Below, piece after piece: positions 3,093-28,289 of a stretch of DNA of 64,000 nucleotides. Positions within the stretch are counted from its first letter, which is position 1. Each line of letters begins with the position of its first letter. Under the pieces are notes generated by a model. That model had not been told where the DNA came from and did no database searches. It saw only the letters and a program-made list of their open reading frames with translations. This DNA comes from Methanofervidicoccus sp. A16. GTDB taxonomy: Archaea > AGJL01 > Methanococci > Methanococcales > Methanococcaceae. Where the stretch lies: the NCBI RefSeq assembly GCF_003351865.1, contig NZ_CP022242.1:248001-312000 (forward strand), written 5' to 3'. The translations under genes were made by a program, and so were the position numbers.

Positions 3093-3464
3093 ATGAGAGT
3101 GTATCTACTTTTAATATTACTATCTTTGATAACAATATTCTCAGGTTGTATAGAAGATGAAAATAATGGGGATGATCAAAAATTAACAAATGATCTAAAT
3201 CCTGAAGGAAAAACTGTAGTAATAGTATTTTACGCTGACTGGTGTAAGTACTGTAAGGCCCTTGAACCTACGTTAAACCAGTTGGAGAAGGAAGGTATAG
3301 AAATTATAAGGATAAACGTTGATGAACATCCAGAGTTGGCACAAAAATTTGGAGTCAGAGGGCTACCTACTGTTATCTACATTAAAAATGGTTTTGAAGT
3401 TGGAAGAACTGTCGGCTACGATCCAAAAGAGGTAGTAAATAAGGCCAGGGAACTTTATGAATAA
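3093..3464 (+). CDS. Thioredoxin-fold lipoprotein (copy 1)
   Basis: Secreted, lipid-anchored thioredoxin-like protein of 123 residues. The N-terminus is a hydrophobic signal ending in a lipobox-like LITIFSGC, so Cys19 is the likely anchor. The redox motif WCKYC and the cis-proline loop RGLPTVIY are intact. It probably reduces or exchanges disulfides outside the membrane, receiving electrons from the CcdA protein encoded 27 bp downstream. It is a close paralogue of the gene at 25673-26044, with a matching upstream AT-rich leader, so the two-gene unit is duplicated in this window. Confidence 0.87.
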   Translation: MRVYLLLILLSLITIFSGCIEDENNGDDQKLTNDLNPEGKTVVIVFYADWCKYCKALEPTLNQLEKEGIEIIRINVDEHPELAQKFGVRGLPTVIYIKNGFEVGRTVGYDPKEVVNKARELYE

Positions 3465-19879: not shown

Positions 19880-20012
19880 TCTTTTTGCTGACTCTGCTAT
19901 TTTTGCTCTGATGTAATTATCCTTTATTGAATGTCTGTTTAGCTGGAATGGTAAGAAATTCTGCTTTTACTAATAATAGTAATAAATATTTTATTTCTAG
20001 TCTAGATGCTGA

Positions 20013-20166
20013 TAAAATACTATTATCTGTTTTATACTTCCACAATAATATCTCTTCTCTGTTGAGGAGGTAAAAAACATGTTTTTTACTTTCAACAAAC
20101 TATATACTTTATATCTGAGTTATTACTAATAAGTTGGTACTACCGTCTGTCTTATATTTCCTACTT
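20013..20166 (-). pseudogene. Decayed fragment of a beta-propeller repeat gene
   Basis: About 150 bp that align by eye with the repeat units of the propeller gene at 21352-22794, in the same orientation. For example, ATCTGTTTTATACTTCCACA is followed by a degraded copy of the AGAGGTAGACATG segment. A second unit begins near 20093. Small indels and many substitutions destroy any frame. It lies beyond the phosphatase gene, so a longer or second propeller gene once extended here. Confidence 0.7.
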
Positions 20167-20653: not shown

Positions 20654-21355
20654 CTATTCCAAACTTACAACGATTACAGTGATGTTATCTTCACTTCTTT
20701 CAAGTGCCAACTTAACAAGTTTTCTACAGGCCTCTTCAGGTTCGTAGGATCTTACGATCTCTGCAATTTCTCTGTCATCTACGTAATCATGGAGGCCATC
20801 ACTACAGAGTAATAATGTTCCCTTTAGTTTTATTCTGTAGATATCTGGCTCGATATTTTCTTCAATACCTAAGGCTCTTGTAAGTACGTTTTTCATTGGG
20901 TGTTTCTTGGCATCTTCTTCATCTATGATGTTTGTGTTGAGGAGTTCCTGGATGTAGTTGTGATCCTTCGTATGCCATACGTTGTCATCATCTATGATGT
21001 AGGCTCTACTATCTCCAATATTTGCTATGACGCACTCTCCATTTTTATTTAGTAAGCAGGCTACAAGTGTACTTCCCATCTTTGCTCCAACTATATCACT
21101 GTAGGCTAAGATCTCTCTGTTGGCATTTTCAAATGCTTTTTTAAGTAGATCTTCCGGTTTGCCCTGGGATCTCTTGATGGTTTCCTTTAACTCCATTATG
21201 GCTATCCTACTTGCTTTTTCTCCATAGGCATGTCCTCCCATCCCATCTGCCACTGCGAAGACGTAGTATTTACCTATTTTTTCTGCCAGGTAAGCATCTT
21301 CGTTTTTCTCCCTTTTTCCCTTCACTGAAAGGGCTGAGAATTTTATTTTATTCAT
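20654..21355 (-). CDS. PP2C-family serine/threonine protein phosphatase
   Basis: Metal-dependent phosphatase of 233 residues in the PP2C/Stp1 class. All core motifs are present: KNEDAY (Asp20), VADGMGGHAYG (Asp37), IGDSRAY, LLCSDGLHDYV and the terminal DNITVIV. These supply the aspartates of the two-metal site. It should reverse the phosphorylation made by the kinase two genes upstream. Its ATG overlaps the stop of the propeller gene by four bases (ATGA), so translation is probably coupled. PP2C enzymes are uncommon in methanogens, so acquisition from bacteria is possible but unproven here. Confidence 0.93.
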   Translation of the reverse strand: MNKIKFSALSVKGKREKNEDAYLAEKIGKYYVFAVADGMGGHAYGEKASRIAIMELKETIKRSQGKPEDLLKKAFENANREILAYSDIVGAKMGSTLVACLLNKNGECVIANIGDSRAYIIDDDNVWHTKDHNYIQELLNTNIIDEEDAKKHPMKNVLTRALGIEENIEPDIYRIKLKGTLLLCSDGLHDYVDDREIAEIVRSYEPEEACRKLVKLALERSEDNITVIVVSLE

Positions 21356-22794
21356 TTCTCTTCCCCAATGAGTTTTTTCAACTCTTCGATTATCTCTCTT
21401 TTTTCTTTTTCAAGTTGTTTTTTTCTTCTCTTTCTGTATTTATAGTATTTATTTCCGAAGTAGAGGGACATAAGAAAGATTACAGCTCCTGAGGTATAGA
21501 GATAGTAGTTGTTTACATAGGGAGCAAAATCTTCTTCATTAGGTATTCCATCCTGGTCTATATCTAGGGCAAGGGATTTTGCTTTTAAAGTAAGTTCTCC
21601 TGCTTTAGAATAATCTCCTCTTTTAAATGCCTCCTCAGCCTGGTGTAATATATCTTCGGCTTCTTTAACATTGTATTTGGTCTTTATCTGAGAGATTATT
21701 AATTTAACGTCATCTAATATTTTTTCTATCGTTTGAACTGAGACAAAGAAATAAATATCTCCACCTCCAGCAACAATATACTCCCCATCTGGAGTTATAG
21801 AGACTGAGTAAACACTACCATCTGTTTCATATTTCCACAGTAACTTCCCCTCTCTGTTGAAGAGATAGACATGTTTATCCCAACTCCCAGCAACAATATA
21901 CTCCCCATCTGGAGTTATGGAGACTGATTTAACATAATCATCTGTTTTATACTTCCATAACAACTCCCCCTCTCTGTTGAAGAGGTAGACATGATCATCC
22001 TCACTCCCGGCAACAATATACTCCCCATCTGGAGTTATGGAGACTGAGATAACACTATCATCTGTTTTATACTTCCACAGTAACTTCCCTTTTTTATTGA
22101 AGAAATAAATATTATTTCCTATTAACGACCCCTTCCCACCTCCAGCAACAATATACTCCCCATCTGGAGTTATAGAGACTGATTTAACCCAACCATATAT
22201 TCCATCCTTCCACAGTAACTTCCCTTTTTTATTGAAGAAATAAATATTATTTCCTATTAACGACCCCTTCCCACCTCCAGCAACAATATACTCCCCATCT
22301 GGAGTTATAGAGACTGAGTAAACACTACCATCTGTTTCATATTTCCACAGTAACTTCCCAAATCTGTTGAAGAGATAGACATGATCATCCCCACTCCCAG
22401 CAACAATATACTCCCCATCTGGAGTTATAGAGACTGAGTAAACCCAATCATCTGTTTTGTACTTCCATAACAACTCCCCCTCTCTGTTGAAGAGATAGAC
22501 ATGATCATCCCCACTCCCAGCAACAATATACTCCCCATCTGGAGTTATAGAGACTGAGTAAACACTACCATCTGTTTCATATTTCCACAGTAACTTCCCA
22601 AATCTGTTGAAGAGGTAGACATGACCATACCCACCTCCAGCAACAATATACTCCCCATCTGGAGTTATGGAGACTGATTCAACAACTCCATCTGTTTCAT
22701 ATTTCCATAACAAAACATACTCTTCCCCCCATACTACGTTCAACATACATAAACTTAAAAACACCGCTAGTCCAAATATTTTCACTCTCTTCAT
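21352..22794 (-). CDS. Exported eight-repeat beta-propeller protein with one membrane helix (putative sensor)
   Basis: A protein of about 480 residues. A signal peptide (FGLAVFLSLCMLNVVWG) is followed by eight repeats of about 40 residues with the core SVSITPDGEYIVAG and ends in LLWKYETDG, typical of PQQ/WD-like propeller blades. Next come a helical segment, a calcium-loop-like DIDQDGIPNEEDF, one membrane helix near residue 445 and a basic cytoplasmic tail ending in IEELKKLIGE. The propeller would be outside the cell. It is placed between kinase and phosphatase genes. Start uncertain: ATG 22794 (signal peptide standard) or GTG 22803, which would overlap the kinase stop. Confidence 0.85.
   Translation of the reverse strand: MKRVKIFGLAVFLSLCMLNVVWGEEYVLLWKYETDGVVESVSITPDGEYIVAGGGYGHVYLFNRFGKLLWKYETDGSVYSVSITPDGEYIVAGSGDDHVYLFNREGELLWKYKTDDWVYSVSITPDGEYIVAGSGDDHVYLFNRFGKLLWKYETDGSVYSVSITPDGEYIVAGGGKGSLIGNNIYFFNKKGKLLWKDGIYGWVKSVSITPDGEYIVAGGGKGSLIGNNIYFFNKKGKLLWKYKTDDSVISVSITPDGEYIVAGSEDDHVYLFNREGELLWKYKTDDYVKSVSITPDGEYIVAGSWDKHVYLFNREGKLLWKYETDGSVYSVSITPDGEYIVAGGGDIYFFVSVQTIEKILDDVKLIISQIKTKYNVKEAEDILHQAEEAFKRGDYSKAGELTLKAKSLALDIDQDGIPNEEDFAPYVNNYYLYTSGAVIFLMSLYFGNKYYKYRKRRKKQLEKEKREIIEELKKLIGEEK
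22072..22317 (-). repeat. 111-bp exact tandem duplication inside the propeller gene
   Basis: Bases 22072-22182 and 22207-22317 are identical over 111 bp. They encode propeller repeats 4 and 5 with the unusual loop KGSLIGNN. The other repeats are also nearly identical at the DNA level. This points to recent copying of whole blades by recombination. Confidence 0.85.
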
Positions 22795-22799
22795 CCTTC

Positions 22800-25271
22800 T
22801 CACTCTACCAACTTCAAAAATTTCTCAATTTCTTCAACTATAGATTCTCCTTTAATTCCCTCCCTTACCATATAATCGATCTGTCCTATTAAACACCTAC
22901 AATCCCTCTTAAGTTTCTCATCCCTTATCTTACCTTCCGCAAACTTCAACTCCTTCAAACAGGACACTAAATCCCCCTCCTTTGCATGGTAGAAGGCTAA
23001 GTACAGGGACTTCTCAACTAACGTTCTGTAATCCTTCGTCAGGTGCAGACTGATACCGTACCTCTTCTTCATAAACTCATAAACCCCCTCCCTGAACTCC
23101 CTTACACTTGGCCTCTTCTCAGGATCCTTGGAGAGACATCTCATAATTAAATCGTCCAGCCCCTCTGCATCCCTGTTGTACTTTGAGGGAGGTTCTGGTA
23201 TATAATTTCTTACCTTCTCCTCTATCTCGGAGTTAGTTTTCCCATCAAATGGGTTAAACCCTGTTAGCATGACGTAAAGGAGGAGTCCCAGTTGATATAC
23301 ATCTGTTTTTTCACTTACCTTCCCTTCCAGTTGTTCTGGAGCGGAGTACATCGGTGTAAATCCTCTAATACTCCTGGACTTCGTAACTGCAACTGCCAAC
23401 CCAAAGTCTGTTATCTTAGCCTCGTAGAACCTCCCGATCCTCTTAAGTAGAATATTCTGTGGTTTTATATCTCCATGTATAACAAGTTGGGAGTGGGCGT
23501 ATTCAATACCCCTGGCAACGTCGTTTATGATCCTACATGCATCCTCGATATCCATCCTCCCCTCCTTGAGACTCCCTCCATCAACGTACTCCAAGACCAT
23601 ATGAGGGAATGGAGTCAACCTTGGCTCTATCAACCTGACGATATTCCTGTGGTTAAGTTTTCTCCAATTTTCAAGTTCGTTGAAGAATACCTTCTCAGCC
23701 TCCCTTGTAAGTTCCTCAGGTATCTTCAATGCAACTATACTTCCATCATCCCTCCTCTTAGCCTTATAAACCCTGGCAAAACCACCAGAACCGATATACT
23801 CGAGGGACTCGTACTCCTCCCTAAGTTTCTCAAGGCGCTCATCCCTTATGAAACCACCCCCTCTCTCAACTTCAATCTTAATACCCCTCCTAACATCCTC
23901 AACTTTATATATCTCAGGTTTCACCTCTCCAACATCCACAAGTAACCTCCTTATCTGTGTTATGTTCCTATCACAGGCATTTCTCAGATCCTGGATATAG
24001 GGTATCTTAGAGGTTACCTTTAGAGACACAGCCTCATCTTCAACCTCGTTTAAATACTGCCATACCTCCCTATACCTCTCCCTTGCATCGTAGTACTCAC
24101 CTGACTTGAACAACTCTTCTGTCTTCTCCATCATCCTCTCGGCATTTCTTATCTTCACAGCGATTATTCTCTCGGAGCACTCCTGTATCAACTCTTTAAC
24201 CCTATCTTTATCTCTAACATCCAGGGATCTTAAATACTCCAGTGCAGAGTAGAGTTTCCTCTCAGCCTCAGGATCCTCGATATCTACATCTATAAGATAC
24301 TCCCCTTTACCAAGTTTCACATGTTCAATACTCTCCTCCACACTTTCCAGCCCCTCCCTTATCTTATCCCTTTCAAAATTCCTCTTTTCAGCGATATCAA
24401 GTGCAGATTTGAATAACCTCTTAGCCTCCATATAACTCTCCAATGCACTGTCGTAGTTCTTAGATGAGAAAAACTTATTACCCTTCTCAACGTACTCGTT
24501 TGCCTTGGAAACAAGTTTGAGCATCTCCCTGTTATCTATGGCTATCTTTGCGTTCTCTATGTTCTGTCTTATCCTCTCCTGGGCAAACTCTATATCCCTA
24601 ACTAGATCCTCATCTTTCCTCTCCCTTGCAGCCTCCTTAGCCCTCTCATACTCCTCAAGTGATCTCCTCCACAGTTCAATAGATTCCTCAAATTTATCCT
24701 GTGTGAAACTTCTCTCAGCATCTAAGGCAAAATCCTTCGCCCTCTGGAGTAGATAATCTGGAGTTGGTTTAGCAGCGAGTTTAGCCTTCTCTATAAGTTC
24801 TTCAGCCTCATTGAATCTACCCTTTTTGAGTAGATTGAGTGCCTCCTCCTTCAACTCCTTAGCCTCCTTAGGATTTGAGCCAGGGAGTTCTCTACTTATA
24901 AGTCTTTCAACATCTTCTATTTTCATAAAAATTCTATTTTCTATTTCCAATATCTTTTCAAGTTCTGGGATGAGATCCTCGGCGTTATCTAAATCTCCAC
25001 TTCTGATTCTATCGTAGATACTGTTAGCAACATTCCTTGCCTTTCCATGGATCTTTATCTTTGCTTCCAAATTTTTAATCCTCTCAACGATATTCCTTTC
25101 TTTTAAAGCCAGATTTTTAGCCTCTTTCAGTAATTTCAATGCTCTTTTGAAGTTATCTTTTTTAATCTCCCTTATAGCCTTTCTGATAATATCTTTTGAT
25201 GCATTATAGTAACTATCGTCTTTTATTAATTCTTTCAATTCAAGCATCACCTCTCTGATCTCCTCCAGCAT
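22800..25271 (-). CDS. Hanks-type serine/threonine protein kinase with long helical N-terminal region
   Basis: Predicted cytoplasmic kinase, 823 residues. Residues 1-450 are helical hairpins resembling TPR-like repeats (for example FKRALKLLKEAKNLALKERN and FNEAEELIEKAKLA). The kinase domain spans about 488-735: glycine loop IGSGGFARV 493-501, Lys516 in VALKIP, catalytic HGDIKPQN with Asp601, DFG at 622-624 and APE at 644-646. HGD replaces the common HRD, so activation-loop control may differ. No membrane helix is seen. It is first in a tight three-gene unit with the propeller and PP2C genes. A GGTGATTAACG leader precedes the ATG. Confidence 0.93.
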   Translation of the reverse strand: MLEEIREVMLELKELIKDDSYYNASKDIIRKAIREIKKDNFKRALKLLKEAKNLALKERNIVERIKNLEAKIKIHGKARNVANSIYDRIRSGDLDNAEDLIPELEKILEIENRIFMKIEDVERLISRELPGSNPKEAKELKEEALNLLKKGRFNEAEELIEKAKLAAKPTPDYLLQRAKDFALDAERSFTQDKFEESIELWRRSLEEYERAKEAARERKDEDLVRDIEFAQERIRQNIENAKIAIDNREMLKLVSKANEYVEKGNKFFSSKNYDSALESYMEAKRLFKSALDIAEKRNFERDKIREGLESVEESIEHVKLGKGEYLIDVDIEDPEAERKLYSALEYLRSLDVRDKDRVKELIQECSERIIAVKIRNAERMMEKTEELFKSGEYYDARERYREVWQYLNEVEDEAVSLKVTSKIPYIQDLRNACDRNITQIRRLLVDVGEVKPEIYKVEDVRRGIKIEVERGGGFIRDERLEKLREEYESLEYIGSGGFARVYKAKRRDDGSIVALKIPEELTREAEKVFFNELENWRKLNHRNIVRLIEPRLTPFPHMVLEYVDGGSLKEGRMDIEDACRIINDVARGIEYAHSQLVIHGDIKPQNILLKRIGRFYEAKITDFGLAVAVTKSRSIRGFTPMYSAPEQLEGKVSEKTDVYQLGLLLYVMLTGFNPFDGKTNSEIEEKVRNYIPEPPSKYNRDAEGLDDLIMRCLSKDPEKRPSVREFREGVYEFMKKRYGISLHLTKDYRTLVEKSLYLAFYHAKEGDLVSCLKELKFAEGKIRDEKLKRDCRCLIGQIDYMVREGIKGESIVEEIEKFLKLVE

Positions 25272-25279
25272 CGTTAATC

Positions 25280-25490
25280 ACCTACAAGTTTTCTCAACTC
25301 TTTTTTTCCTTTTCAAAAATTTCCTTCTTTATTTTCTCTTACTGATCCAATAATTGATCCAGAAATGGATGATTTTTAAAATTAGATAGATAATTATTAG
25401 ATTATATTATTATAATTATTTTCCAATCCCAACCTAAGATTTGGATCCATATCATCTGGATAAGTATGAAACCGATTATTATATAGAGAT
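25280..25490 (-). pseudogene. Decayed C-terminal end of a TPR membrane protein gene
   Basis: This stretch aligns with the 3' part of the TPR gene at 26790-28289 in the same orientation: CATCTGGATAAGTATGA against CATCTGGATGAATATAA, then TTTCAAAAATTTCC and a final ELRKLVGD-stop next to the ELKKLIGE tail of the intact gene. Frame breaks occur in the two-helix membrane region. The relic stop lies eleven bases before the kinase start, and its tail provides the GGTGAT of the kinase ribosome binding site. Confidence 0.75.
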
Positions 25491-25672: not shown

Positions 25673-26044
25673 ATGAAGACATATCTACTTTTAATATTAC
25701 TATCCATCACAACAATACTTTCAGGTTGTATAGATTTTGGAAATAGTGAATACAATGAAGTATTAATAAAGGATCTAAATCTTGAAGGAAAAACTGCAAT
25801 AGTGGTATTTCACGCTGACTGGTGCAAATACTGTAAGGATCTTGAACCTACACTGAACCAGTTGGAGAAGGAGGGTGTAGAGGTTATAAGGATAGACGTT
25901 GATGAACGTCGAGAGTTGGCAGAAAAATTGGGAATTAGAGGGCTACCTACTGTTATCTACGTCAAGGACGGTGTTGTAGTTGGAAGAACTATCGGCTACG
26001 ATCCAGAGGGAATAGTAAATAAGGCCAGGGAACTTTATCAGTAA
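25673..26044 (+). CDS. Thioredoxin-fold lipoprotein (copy 2)
   Basis: Paralogue of the gene at 3093-3464, 123 residues, same design: hydrophobic signal with lipobox ILSGC, active site WCKYC, and cis-proline loop RGLPTVIYV. Differences are scattered and mostly conservative, with the lowest similarity just after the lipid anchor. It is followed 14 bp later by a second ccdA. It lies beside the kinase/TPR accessory cassette, divergent from it. Confidence 0.87.
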   Translation: MKTYLLLILLSITTILSGCIDFGNSEYNEVLIKDLNLEGKTAIVVFHADWCKYCKDLEPTLNQLEKEGVEVIRIDVDERRELAEKLGIRGLPTVIYVKDGVVVGRTIGYDPEGIVNKARELYQ

Positions 26045-26058
26045 TCTTAGGAGATGTT

Positions 26059-26709
26059 ATGGATCTACTGTTAATATTTATTTCAGGGGTATTTACTGCA
26101 TTGGGTCCCTGTGTATTGACTGTACTACCTGTGGTATTTTCCTATACCTTTGGGATCTCGGAATCTAAAATAGAGGCATTTATTGTATCTTTGTTTTTTG
26201 TTTTGGGATTCTCCATAGTTTTTAGTTTATTGGGGGCTATTTCATCTGTTTTTGGCATATTTTTAGGAATTTACAGGTTAAAGTACGTTGCAGGTATTTT
26301 GGCGATAGTTTTAGGTTTATTGATTATGTTTAAAAAGGGTTTTTCATTTAGATTGAAGGGAAATTTTTTTAACAGGATTATAACTAAAATTAACAATAAA
26401 AATATCTCCCTTAAGTATAAAGTGCTTACCTCTTTTATCTTTGGATTGTCTTACGGTGTTGGAGCCAATGTATGTGCAGATCCTATTTTAGCGGGAATAT
26501 TAACCTACGTATCTACAAAATCAGATGTTATTTTTGGAGTTTTGGCTTTATTTATATATTCAATAGGTTATGGACTTCCAATAATTCTCCTAAGTGTTAT
26601 AGGTTTTGAAGGTAAAGAGGTATTTAAGAAATTTGTAAACTCTCATCTTGTTAGTTTTATCTCAGGTTTTATACTGATTGTGTTGGGACTTTTTGTTATT
26701 TTTAGGTAA
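26059..26709 (+). CDS. ccdA: CcdA-family transmembrane electron-transfer protein (copy 2)
   Basis: Second CcdA-type protein (216 residues, six helices), with the cysteines of LGPCVLTVLP and GANVCADPIL conserved. Length and order match copy 1 exactly and most residues are the same, so the duplication is of the whole two-gene unit. It likely passes electrons to the adjacent thioredoxin lipoprotein. AGGAG precedes the start. It is convergent with the TPR gene. Confidence 0.88.
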   Translation: MDLLLIFISGVFTALGPCVLTVLPVVFSYTFGISESKIEAFIVSLFFVLGFSIVFSLLGAISSVFGIFLGIYRLKYVAGILAIVLGLLIMFKKGFSFRLKGNFFNRIITKINNKNISLKYKVLTSFIFGLSYGVGANVCADPILAGILTYVSTKSDVIFGVLALFIYSIGYGLPIILLSVIGFEGKEVFKKFVNSHLVSFISGFILIVLGLFVIFR

Positions 26710-26789: not shown

Positions 26790-28289
26790 CTAATCGTCCT
26801 CATCGTCGTATTCACCTATAAGTTTTTTCAACTCTTTAATTATATATCTCTTCTCCATTTCAAAAATTTCCCTCTCTATTTTTTTCTTATTGGTCCAATA
26901 CTTAATCCAGAAATAGGTGGTTTTTATAATGATGTAAATAATTATTAGGTTAATTGTTGTAATTAGTATCCAATTCCAACCAAAGATTAGGATCCATGCT
27001 ATCTGGATGAATATAAGAGTTATTATTATATAAAGTATATAATTTTTCTTATCTGCTTTACCAAAGCATATTATGGATTCTAAAAATTTTCCTAACTTAT
27101 AGAGAGCAACTCCTTTATTATTCCAAGCATCTACATCTTTTGGATCTATTGCCAATGCTCTATCGTAACACTCTATAGCTTCTTCGTATCTTCCTAAATC
27201 ATAGAGAGCATTTCCTTTATTATACCAAGCATAAGCATATTTTGGATCTATCTCCAACGCCTTATCATAGTATTTTATTGCTTCTTCGTATCTTCCTAAA
27301 TCATAGAGAGCATTTCCTTTATCATTCCAAGCATCTACATCTTTTGGATCTATCTCTAACGCCTTATCATAACACTCTATAGCTTCTTCGTATCTTCCTA
27401 AATCATAGAGAGCATTTCCTTTATTATACCAAGCATAAGCATATTTTGGATCTATCTCCAACGCCTTATTATAGCATTCTATTGCTTCTTCGTATCTTCC
27501 TAACTTACGGAGAGCATTTCCTTTATTATACCAAGCATGAACATACTTCGGATCTATCTCCAACGCCTTATCATAGTATTTTATTGCTTCTTCGTATCTT
27601 CCTAAATTAGAGAGAGCTAGTCCTTTATTATTCCAAGCATATACATTATTTGGATCTATCTCCAACGCCTTATCATAACACTCTATTGCTTCTTCGTATC
27701 TTCCTAAATCAGAGAGAGCAACTCCTTTATTATTCCAAGCATAAGCATACTTCGGATCTATCTCCAACGCCTTATCATAGTATTTTATTGCTTCTTCGTA
27801 TCTTCCTAAATTAGAGAGAGCAACTCCTTTACCATTCCAAGCATCTACATATTTTGGATCTATCTCCAACGCCTTATCATAGTATTTTATTGCTTCTTCG
27901 TATCTTCCTAAATTAGAGAGAGCAACTCCTTTACCATTCCAAGCATCTACATATTTTGGATCTATCTCCAACGCCTTATCATAGTATTTTATTGCTTCTT
28001 CGTATCTTCCTAAATTAGAGAGAGCATTTCCTTTATTATTCCAAGCATGAACATATTTTGGATCTATCTCTAACGCCTTATTATAACAATTTATAGCTTC
28101 TTCGTATCTTCCTAAATCAGAGAGAGCATTTCCTTTATTTTTCCAAGCATCTATATAATTTGGATCTATCTCCAACGCCTTATTATAACAATTTATAGCT
28201 TCTTCGTATTTCCCCTGATCATATAGAGTATTTCCCTTCTCGAACCATTCTTCTGCAGTCATACCATCAATTTTCTTCTTAGAAAACAT
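26790..28289 (-). CDS. Twelve-TPR protein with C-terminal membrane hairpin
   Basis: Protein of 499 residues. Twelve 34-residue tetratricopeptide repeats (consensus AWNNKGNALSNLGRYEEAI then YYDKALEIDPKY) run from about residue 10 to 415. Then two close membrane helices (IIITLIFIQIAWILIF and NLIIIYIIIKTTYFWI) and a charged tail with IIKELKKLIGE. There is no signal peptide, so the TPR arm is probably cytoplasmic, a scaffold at the membrane. Repeats 3-5 are near identical in DNA, with a 102-bp period. The tail motif matches that of the propeller protein, linking it to the kinase cassette. Confidence 0.88.
   Translation of the reverse strand: MFSKKKIDGMTAEEWFEKGNTLYDQGKYEEAINCYNKALEIDPNYIDAWKNKGNALSDLGRYEEAINCYNKALEIDPKYVHAWNNKGNALSNLGRYEEAIKYYDKALEIDPKYVDAWNGKGVALSNLGRYEEAIKYYDKALEIDPKYVDAWNGKGVALSNLGRYEEAIKYYDKALEIDPKYAYAWNNKGVALSDLGRYEEAIECYDKALEIDPNNVYAWNNKGLALSNLGRYEEAIKYYDKALEIDPKYVHAWYNKGNALRKLGRYEEAIECYNKALEIDPKYAYAWYNKGNALYDLGRYEEAIECYDKALEIDPKDVDAWNDKGNALYDLGRYEEAIKYYDKALEIDPKYAYAWYNKGNALYDLGRYEEAIECYDRALAIDPKDVDAWNNKGVALYKLGKFLESIICFGKADKKNYILYIIITLIFIQIAWILIFGWNWILITTINLIIIYIIIKTTYFWIKYWTNKKKIEREIFEMEKRYIIKELKKLIGEYDDEDD

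Follow-up and report, generated by a model that had tools for sequence, protein, structure and literature searches.

Makarova et al. (2024; PMC10936438) reported a Ser/Thr kinase (STK) and a phosphatase (STP) in archaeal 'main-clade' ESCRT loci, including those of Methanococcales. These kinase and PP2C pairs come with transmembrane (TM) or extracellular-type domains, the kinases have a PCI-like C-terminal domain, and phosphorylation was proposed as key to ESCRT systems. Among bacterial systems, M. tuberculosis PknD joins an extracellular six-bladed propeller, a TM helix and an inward-facing Hanks kinase in one polypeptide (PMC3322341). In Gram-positive PASTA kinase operons (PknB/PrkC with Stp1), the kinase adjoins a PP2C. 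We know of no archaeal transmembrane Ser/Thr kinase pathway that has been traced all the way from receptor to target.

We analyzed a 64,000-nucleotide window of the heat-loving methanogen Methanofervidicoccus sp. A16 (NZ_CP022242.1, positions 248,001 to 312,000), where a Ser/Thr kinase, a predicted surface propeller and a PP2C are encoded as separate proteins. Shared with the ESCRT-locus STK and STP (PMC10936438) are a related kinase, a C-terminal helical domain (PCI-like in that study), a paired PP2C, membrane association and occurrence in Methanococcales and Thermococcales. The window operon differs in lacking ESCRT genes; its kinase is soluble, without a TM segment of its own, and has N-terminal helical repeats rather than TM, IG or PEGA domains, with ectodomain and TM helix on separate proteins. 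The predicted extracellular propeller, TM helix and internal Hanks kinase also recall PknD, but here the propeller is a separate protein with eight WD40/PQQ-type blades. As in PASTA kinase/Stp1 operons, the kinase adjoins a PP2C (222.5 bits on the Stp1 model against a cut-off of 230), but the sensor is split off, and assignment as a PASTA kinase (PknB/Stk1) was rejected, with PASTA domains absent and a score far under the cut-off (NCBIfam NF033483, 175 bits against 450). The kind of system is known; the split layout and a shared tail are new. The original prediction that no such layout had been described in Methanococcales was too strong: kinase and PP2C with TM or extracellular-type domains had been described (PMC10936438), and the host carries an example (L007), while the soluble kinase with separate, tailed membrane proteins is new.

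Three proteins of one operon

The operon runs on the minus strand from 25271 to 20654 in the order kinase, propeller, PP2C, and all of its features given below lie on that strand. The kinase stop codon TGA (22802-22800) overlaps a propeller start at GTG 22803 or, alternatively, lies 5 bp ahead of ATG 22794, and an ATGA at 21355-21352 is common to the propeller and PP2C genes. The coordinates, strand and overlaps of the original prediction were exact on re-check, and Pfam bore out its three domain identities. A scan for sigma-70-type promoters, a model that does not suit archaea, found no excess over shuffles.

The first gene (22800..25271) encodes a soluble protein with no TM segment along its 823 residues, and its motifs identify it as a Hanks-type (eukaryotic-like) Ser/Thr kinase. 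Pfam PF00069 (Pkinase), on which the kinase-domain fold assignment rests, matches residues 487-726 (E=1e-48, 166 bits against a cut-off of 31.7); with the alignment, the domain spans residues 479-735 (23067..23837). All catalytic residues are present, the motifs being GSGGFARVYKAKR, K516, E532, HGD 599-601, N606, DFG 622-624 and APE. HGD replaces HRD in both the window kinase and its ortholog, making them non-RD kinases with no Arg before the catalytic Asp. The motif had been taken as a hint of unusual control, a suggestion that we do not uphold: non-RD kinases are common in archaea, the ePKs of S. islandicus are all non-RD (PMC5682000), and paralogous kinases have HQD, HKD or HLD at the same motif.

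Residues 1-475 (23847..25271) form a predicted TPR-like helical-repeat region and a candidate docking region. The AlphaFold2 (AF2) model is an all-helical repeat over residues 1-440 (pLDDT ~75-95), with weak matches to TPR superhelices in a fold search (best E 1.7e-3), and related helices were found only in other kinases of the split type and in TM proteins encoded next to kinases. The MIT domain (PF04212, ESCRT-III binding) reached 21.6 bits in the kinase N-terminus against a gathering threshold of 30 (E=2e-4). At the other end, a C-terminal helical domain (residues 736-823; 22803..23066) is matched by phmmer to kinases L007, L075 and L087 (E ~1e-6). Anti-phage kinase systems (PD-T4-6, MAD6, PglW) were considered and rejected, as matches were limited to the kinase domain and partner genes were absent.

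The second gene (21352..22803; 483 aa from GTG 22803 or 480 aa from ATG 22794) encodes a predicted exported beta-propeller with WD40/PQQ-type repeats (Pfam E=7e-47); after the propeller come a helical stalk, a single TM helix and a tail. The AF2 model (pLDDT 86) has eight four-stranded blades (21739..22719), then a helical hairpin and a long helix through the TM segment and tail. Its closest full-length Foldseek matches are also eight-bladed propellers (6tjg, TM 0.88; 5nnz, TM 0.87). We judged the signal peptide and TM helix by hydropathy, the charge rule and a site in the ortholog. The putative signal peptide covers ~23 aa from ATG 22794 (22726..22794, hydropathy 2.04), and the ortholog has a putative cleavage site, ...FSMAHA|QEY (AHA|Q). 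The predicted TM helix YYLYTSGAVIFLMSLYFGNKYY (21442..21507) lies between an acidic DIDQDGIPNEED stretch and RKRRKKQ, with no K/R in the 20 residues before it and six in the seven after, a charge pattern that predicts an outside-to-inside anchor. The original prediction of eight repeats agrees with the 32 strands of the model, and its exported, anchored propeller is what hydropathy, the charge rule and the ortholog AHA|Q site also predict. The membrane-proximal stalk (21550..21738) is homologous to the N-terminal helices of the window kinase (E ~1e-5) and to the linker of fused propeller-kinases.

The third product (20654..21355; 233 aa, soluble) is, by its alignment, a PP2C phosphatase (PPM). 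PF00481 matches with 71 bits (E=1e-19), and the DGxGGH, GDSR, SDG and DN motifs, with their metal-binding Asp, are invariant in the PP2C alignment. Kinase and PP2C genes lie at most ~3.5 kb apart at 15 of the 21 PP2C places in Methanococcales; PP2C genes lacking a nearby kinase gene are those of L088, L091, L092, L093, L094 and L097 (genomes G000, G003, G013, G022, G009 and G028).

Conservation of the unit and the shared tail

Among 36 Methanococcales genomes, a full-length relative of the kinase was found only in the host genome (G000) and in Methanothermococcus sp. SCGC AD-155-C09 (G030), where the ortholog lies at L068:12198-14681. Gene order in G030 is the same (kinase, propeller, PP2C), with identities to the window of 74%, 69% and 76%, respectively. 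Across the three genes, dN is ~0.14-0.20 and dS ~0.7-1.3, and dN/dS is ~0.12-0.26 in each; all three are under purifying selection. The flanks differ between the species: the G030 orthologue of the window CcdA gene is on another contig, and the G030 triad is flanked by a DUF2400 gene, a fumarate-reductase-like fragment and a lyase. Since the triad is intact in a second species with changed flanks, it is a conserved, real unit, and its sequence features point to a functional-looking module. The ortholog triad, purifying selection and different flanks all uphold the original prediction of one three-gene unit, whose homologues proved adjacent and in the same order in G030. The kinase/propeller overlap is not kept in the ortholog, where ~430 bp of non-coding DNA separates the two genes. 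A kinase search across 84,980 species, a single-protein scan that detects close relatives only, returned one relative (L099).

The propeller ends in a 27-residue predicted cytoplasmic tail, RKRRKKQLEKEKREIIEELKKLIGEEK (21355..21435), with the motif EKRxIIxELKKLIGE, which is found on five otherwise different membrane proteins. A tail profile gave five matches at E<1e-12, three in the host genome and two in G030; beyond these carriers, the best match in the 36 genomes was no better than 0.004. The tail is therefore confined to two of the 36 genomes, both of which have this kinase. Its carriers differ in ectodomain and topology and include signal-peptide propellers, TPR proteins and one 2-TM propeller. 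Of the exported propellers, it is shared only by the two encoded in kinase operons: exported propeller-TM paralogues from genomes lacking this kinase (L147-L149, L153-L155) end 4-8 residues past the TM helix, and two in G030 (L150, L151) bear a different tail. The cytoplasmic tail proposed in the original prediction is in this sense a conserved, kinase-linked element, and paralogues without a kinase neighbour are without the motif. Both species with the triad are assigned to one genus, so the co-occurrence of tail and kinase offers few independent data points.

Ser and Thr are absent from the shared tails, which rules these out as substrates of a Ser/Thr kinase, and docking fits better; the simplest reading is that the tail serves as a docking element for the window kinase. 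We also considered and rejected the tail as a homologue of the first kinase helix: the window tail aligned best at residue 1 (shuffle p ~0.02), but the ortholog gave p 0.37. One tail carrier, a stand-alone propeller with two TM helices elsewhere in the host genome (L016:6322-7515; G000:C1:638321-639514), has no adjoining kinase gene.

Another carrier in the window, encoded at 26790..28289 on the minus strand, is a TPR protein whose C-terminal part has two TM helices and the same tail (REIFEMEKRYIIKELKKLIGE); it is likely a fourth member displaced from the operon. In G030, the gene immediately upstream of the ortholog kinase, which it overlaps by 4 bp, encodes a TPR protein with a pair of TM helices (L068:14678-15547), and the C-terminus of this protein matches the propeller tail. 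Directly upstream of the window kinase is a frameshifted relic of the C-terminus of such a TPR gene (25277..25488, minus strand), with tblastn matches at 25485-25300 (E=2e-11) and 25400-25281 (E=4e-8) and KELRKLVGD at 25303-25277. A lipoprotein thioredoxin and CcdA pair (25673-26709, plus strand) separates the operon from the intact TPR gene; a second thioredoxin-like stretch lies near 3246-3308.

Decayed propeller repeats with in-frame stops also lie 3' of the PP2C gene (20004..20159, minus strand; tblastn E=4e-6). With decayed neighbours to either side of the operon, this is a locus in flux. In G030, a full fumarate-reductase-like gene lies on one side of the four-gene operon (L068:6175-16236; G030:C115) and a 109-aa copy of that gene's C-terminus on the other, an arrangement that may be an insertion or recombination scar.

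Split, fused and ESCRT-locus relatives

Elsewhere in Methanococcales, cytosolic proteins (L006, L070, L071, L074, L096) join the same propeller repeats and stalk to a kinase domain, and L075 combines signal peptide, propeller, PEGA, TM helix and kinase in one protein. These fused propeller-kinases (L006, L074, L075 and others) have propeller repeats, a helical stalk and a related kinase domain in common with the window; they differ in being single polypeptides, mostly without signal peptide and TM helix, with kinase domains in another clade. The separation of sensor from kinase put forward in the original prediction is confirmed by the separate genes here and the fused counterparts in relatives.

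Other split pairs exist as well. The G014 pair starts with an exported DUF2341/PEGA protein that has a TM helix and a short tail ending KKKKEVMDELEDLLRR; the next gene encodes a soluble kinase. The N-terminus of this kinase matches window kinase residues 7-105 (E=5e-8), although its kinase domain belongs to another clade. In G035, the gene for a kinase that has window residues 170-453 in common overlaps a TPR-propeller gene. From these pairs, the split between sensor and kinase arose more than once in Methanococcales, with the N-terminal helices recurring among the split kinases. Another split layout is found in L075, L077, L080 and L081, where a short soluble kinase (~500 aa) is encoded directly downstream of a multi-TM protein that has helices related to the N-terminal ones of the window kinase.

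In its kinase and C-terminal domains, the window kinase is related to ESCRT-locus kinases, and across the kinase domain and a portion of the C-terminal domain it is 42% identical to the ESCRT kinase of Thermococcus peptonophilus. In a kinase tree, the window pair forms a separate long branch next to two clades, that of the ESCRT-locus kinases and that of the fused kinases; the length of this branch makes its exact position uncertain. A recent copy of either clade, including one of the host's own ESCRT-locus kinase, was rejected on this placement. The host does have a complete 'main-clade' ESCRT locus ~180 kb from the triad (L007:1959-11770; G000:C1:82000-101900), with genes for two partner proteins, two ESCRT-III-like proteins, Vps4, an exported DUF5122 propeller, a PEGA-TM-kinase and a TM-PP2C. 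In the window neighbourhood, we found no Vps4, ESCRT-III, arCOG09748 or arCOG08177 genes beside the triad.

A possible split receptor kinase

We consider the operon to be, with a probability of about one half, a split receptor kinase made up of the propeller, its tail, the soluble kinase, the PP2C and a second tailed membrane protein, the TPR protein. This reading fits the observations on the tail, the fused relatives and the predicted topology. The propeller would lie outside the cell, held by its single TM helix, and the short amphipathic tail would recruit or switch the soluble kinase via the kinase's N-terminal helical repeats. The recruited kinase would phosphorylate cytosolic targets, and the PP2C would strip the phosphates and reset the signal. 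The TPR protein, with two TM helices and both ends cytosolic, may recruit the same kinase from inside. The module may derive from, or share ancestry with, the kinase and PP2C pairs of ESCRT loci, in which one polypeptide usually carries both ectodomain and kinase. What the sequences show is which genes are present and conserved, the signals of membrane topology, a tail that is shared and occurs together with this kinase, the existence of fused counterparts and the family to which the kinase belongs; from these we infer the tail-kinase contact, the direction of signalling, the PP2C substrates and an external ligand. The same propeller is cytosolic in fused kinases, so an outside ligand is not assured, and the propeller may instead be an oligomerisation platform. 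The tailed L016 protein, with no kinase gene beside it, counts against a split receptor, as do the decayed flanks of the operon and the presence of the triad in no more than two species of one genus. More tentatively, one soluble kinase might serve several unrelated membrane proteins through one short tail, taking inputs from the propeller outside and the TPR protein inside. Cytokine receptors that share a JAK kinase provide an analogy for one kinase with several receptors.

The main rival would place the triad within the ESCRT machinery, as a regulator or a branch of it, with the tail-recruited kinase phosphorylating ESCRT-III or Vps4-system proteins and the propeller acting as an adaptor for cargo or membrane sites rather than as a ligand sensor. 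The kinase and C-terminal domains in common with ESCRT-locus kinases argue for it, as do the complete ESCRT locus in the host, with its own propeller, kinase and PP2C, and the role proposed for phosphorylation (PMC10936438). We nevertheless regard it as rather unlikely, given the ~180 kb to an ESCRT locus that has its own kinase and PP2C, the separate long branch outside the ESCRT-locus clade and an MIT match under the Pfam cut-off. Less probable still is co-transcription without direct contact, whereby a common exported surface protein of Methanococcales merely chances to lie in a kinase/PP2C operon. Exported propeller-TM proteins without kinase neighbours do exist, and the kinase/propeller overlap has not been kept; against this, the tail marks only the exported propellers of kinase operons, the triad stays together despite different flanks, and elsewhere in Methanococcales this propeller forms one protein with a kinase. 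Relics on both sides of the operon, homologous stalks in propeller and kinase and the existence of fused relatives could also point to a decaying fission product of an ancestral propeller-TM-kinase receptor with little function left. With three intact genes, complete catalytic residues and low dN/dS, this seems very improbable.

If the operon is a split receptor kinase, a four-part system with a short docking tail and natural fused and split versions would offer a tractable way to study how receptor kinases come apart and fuse again, and it would inform the role of kinases tied to archaeal ESCRT systems.

Related loci also occur on plasmids. A 49-kb plasmid of Thermococcus peptonophilus (NZ_CP014751.1, 11517-30470; L110) carries an ESCRT, kinase and PP2C locus, and its presence on a plasmid suggests mobility of such loci between hosts. 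This locus matches L007 gene by gene, in both partner proteins, both ESCRT-III-like proteins, Vps4 (66% identical), the kinase and the PP2C. On a plasmid of Halomicrobium mukohataei, one gene (L112:960-3851) encodes helical repeats, a kinase and a C-terminal PQQ-type propeller in one protein and adjoins a second kinase gene.
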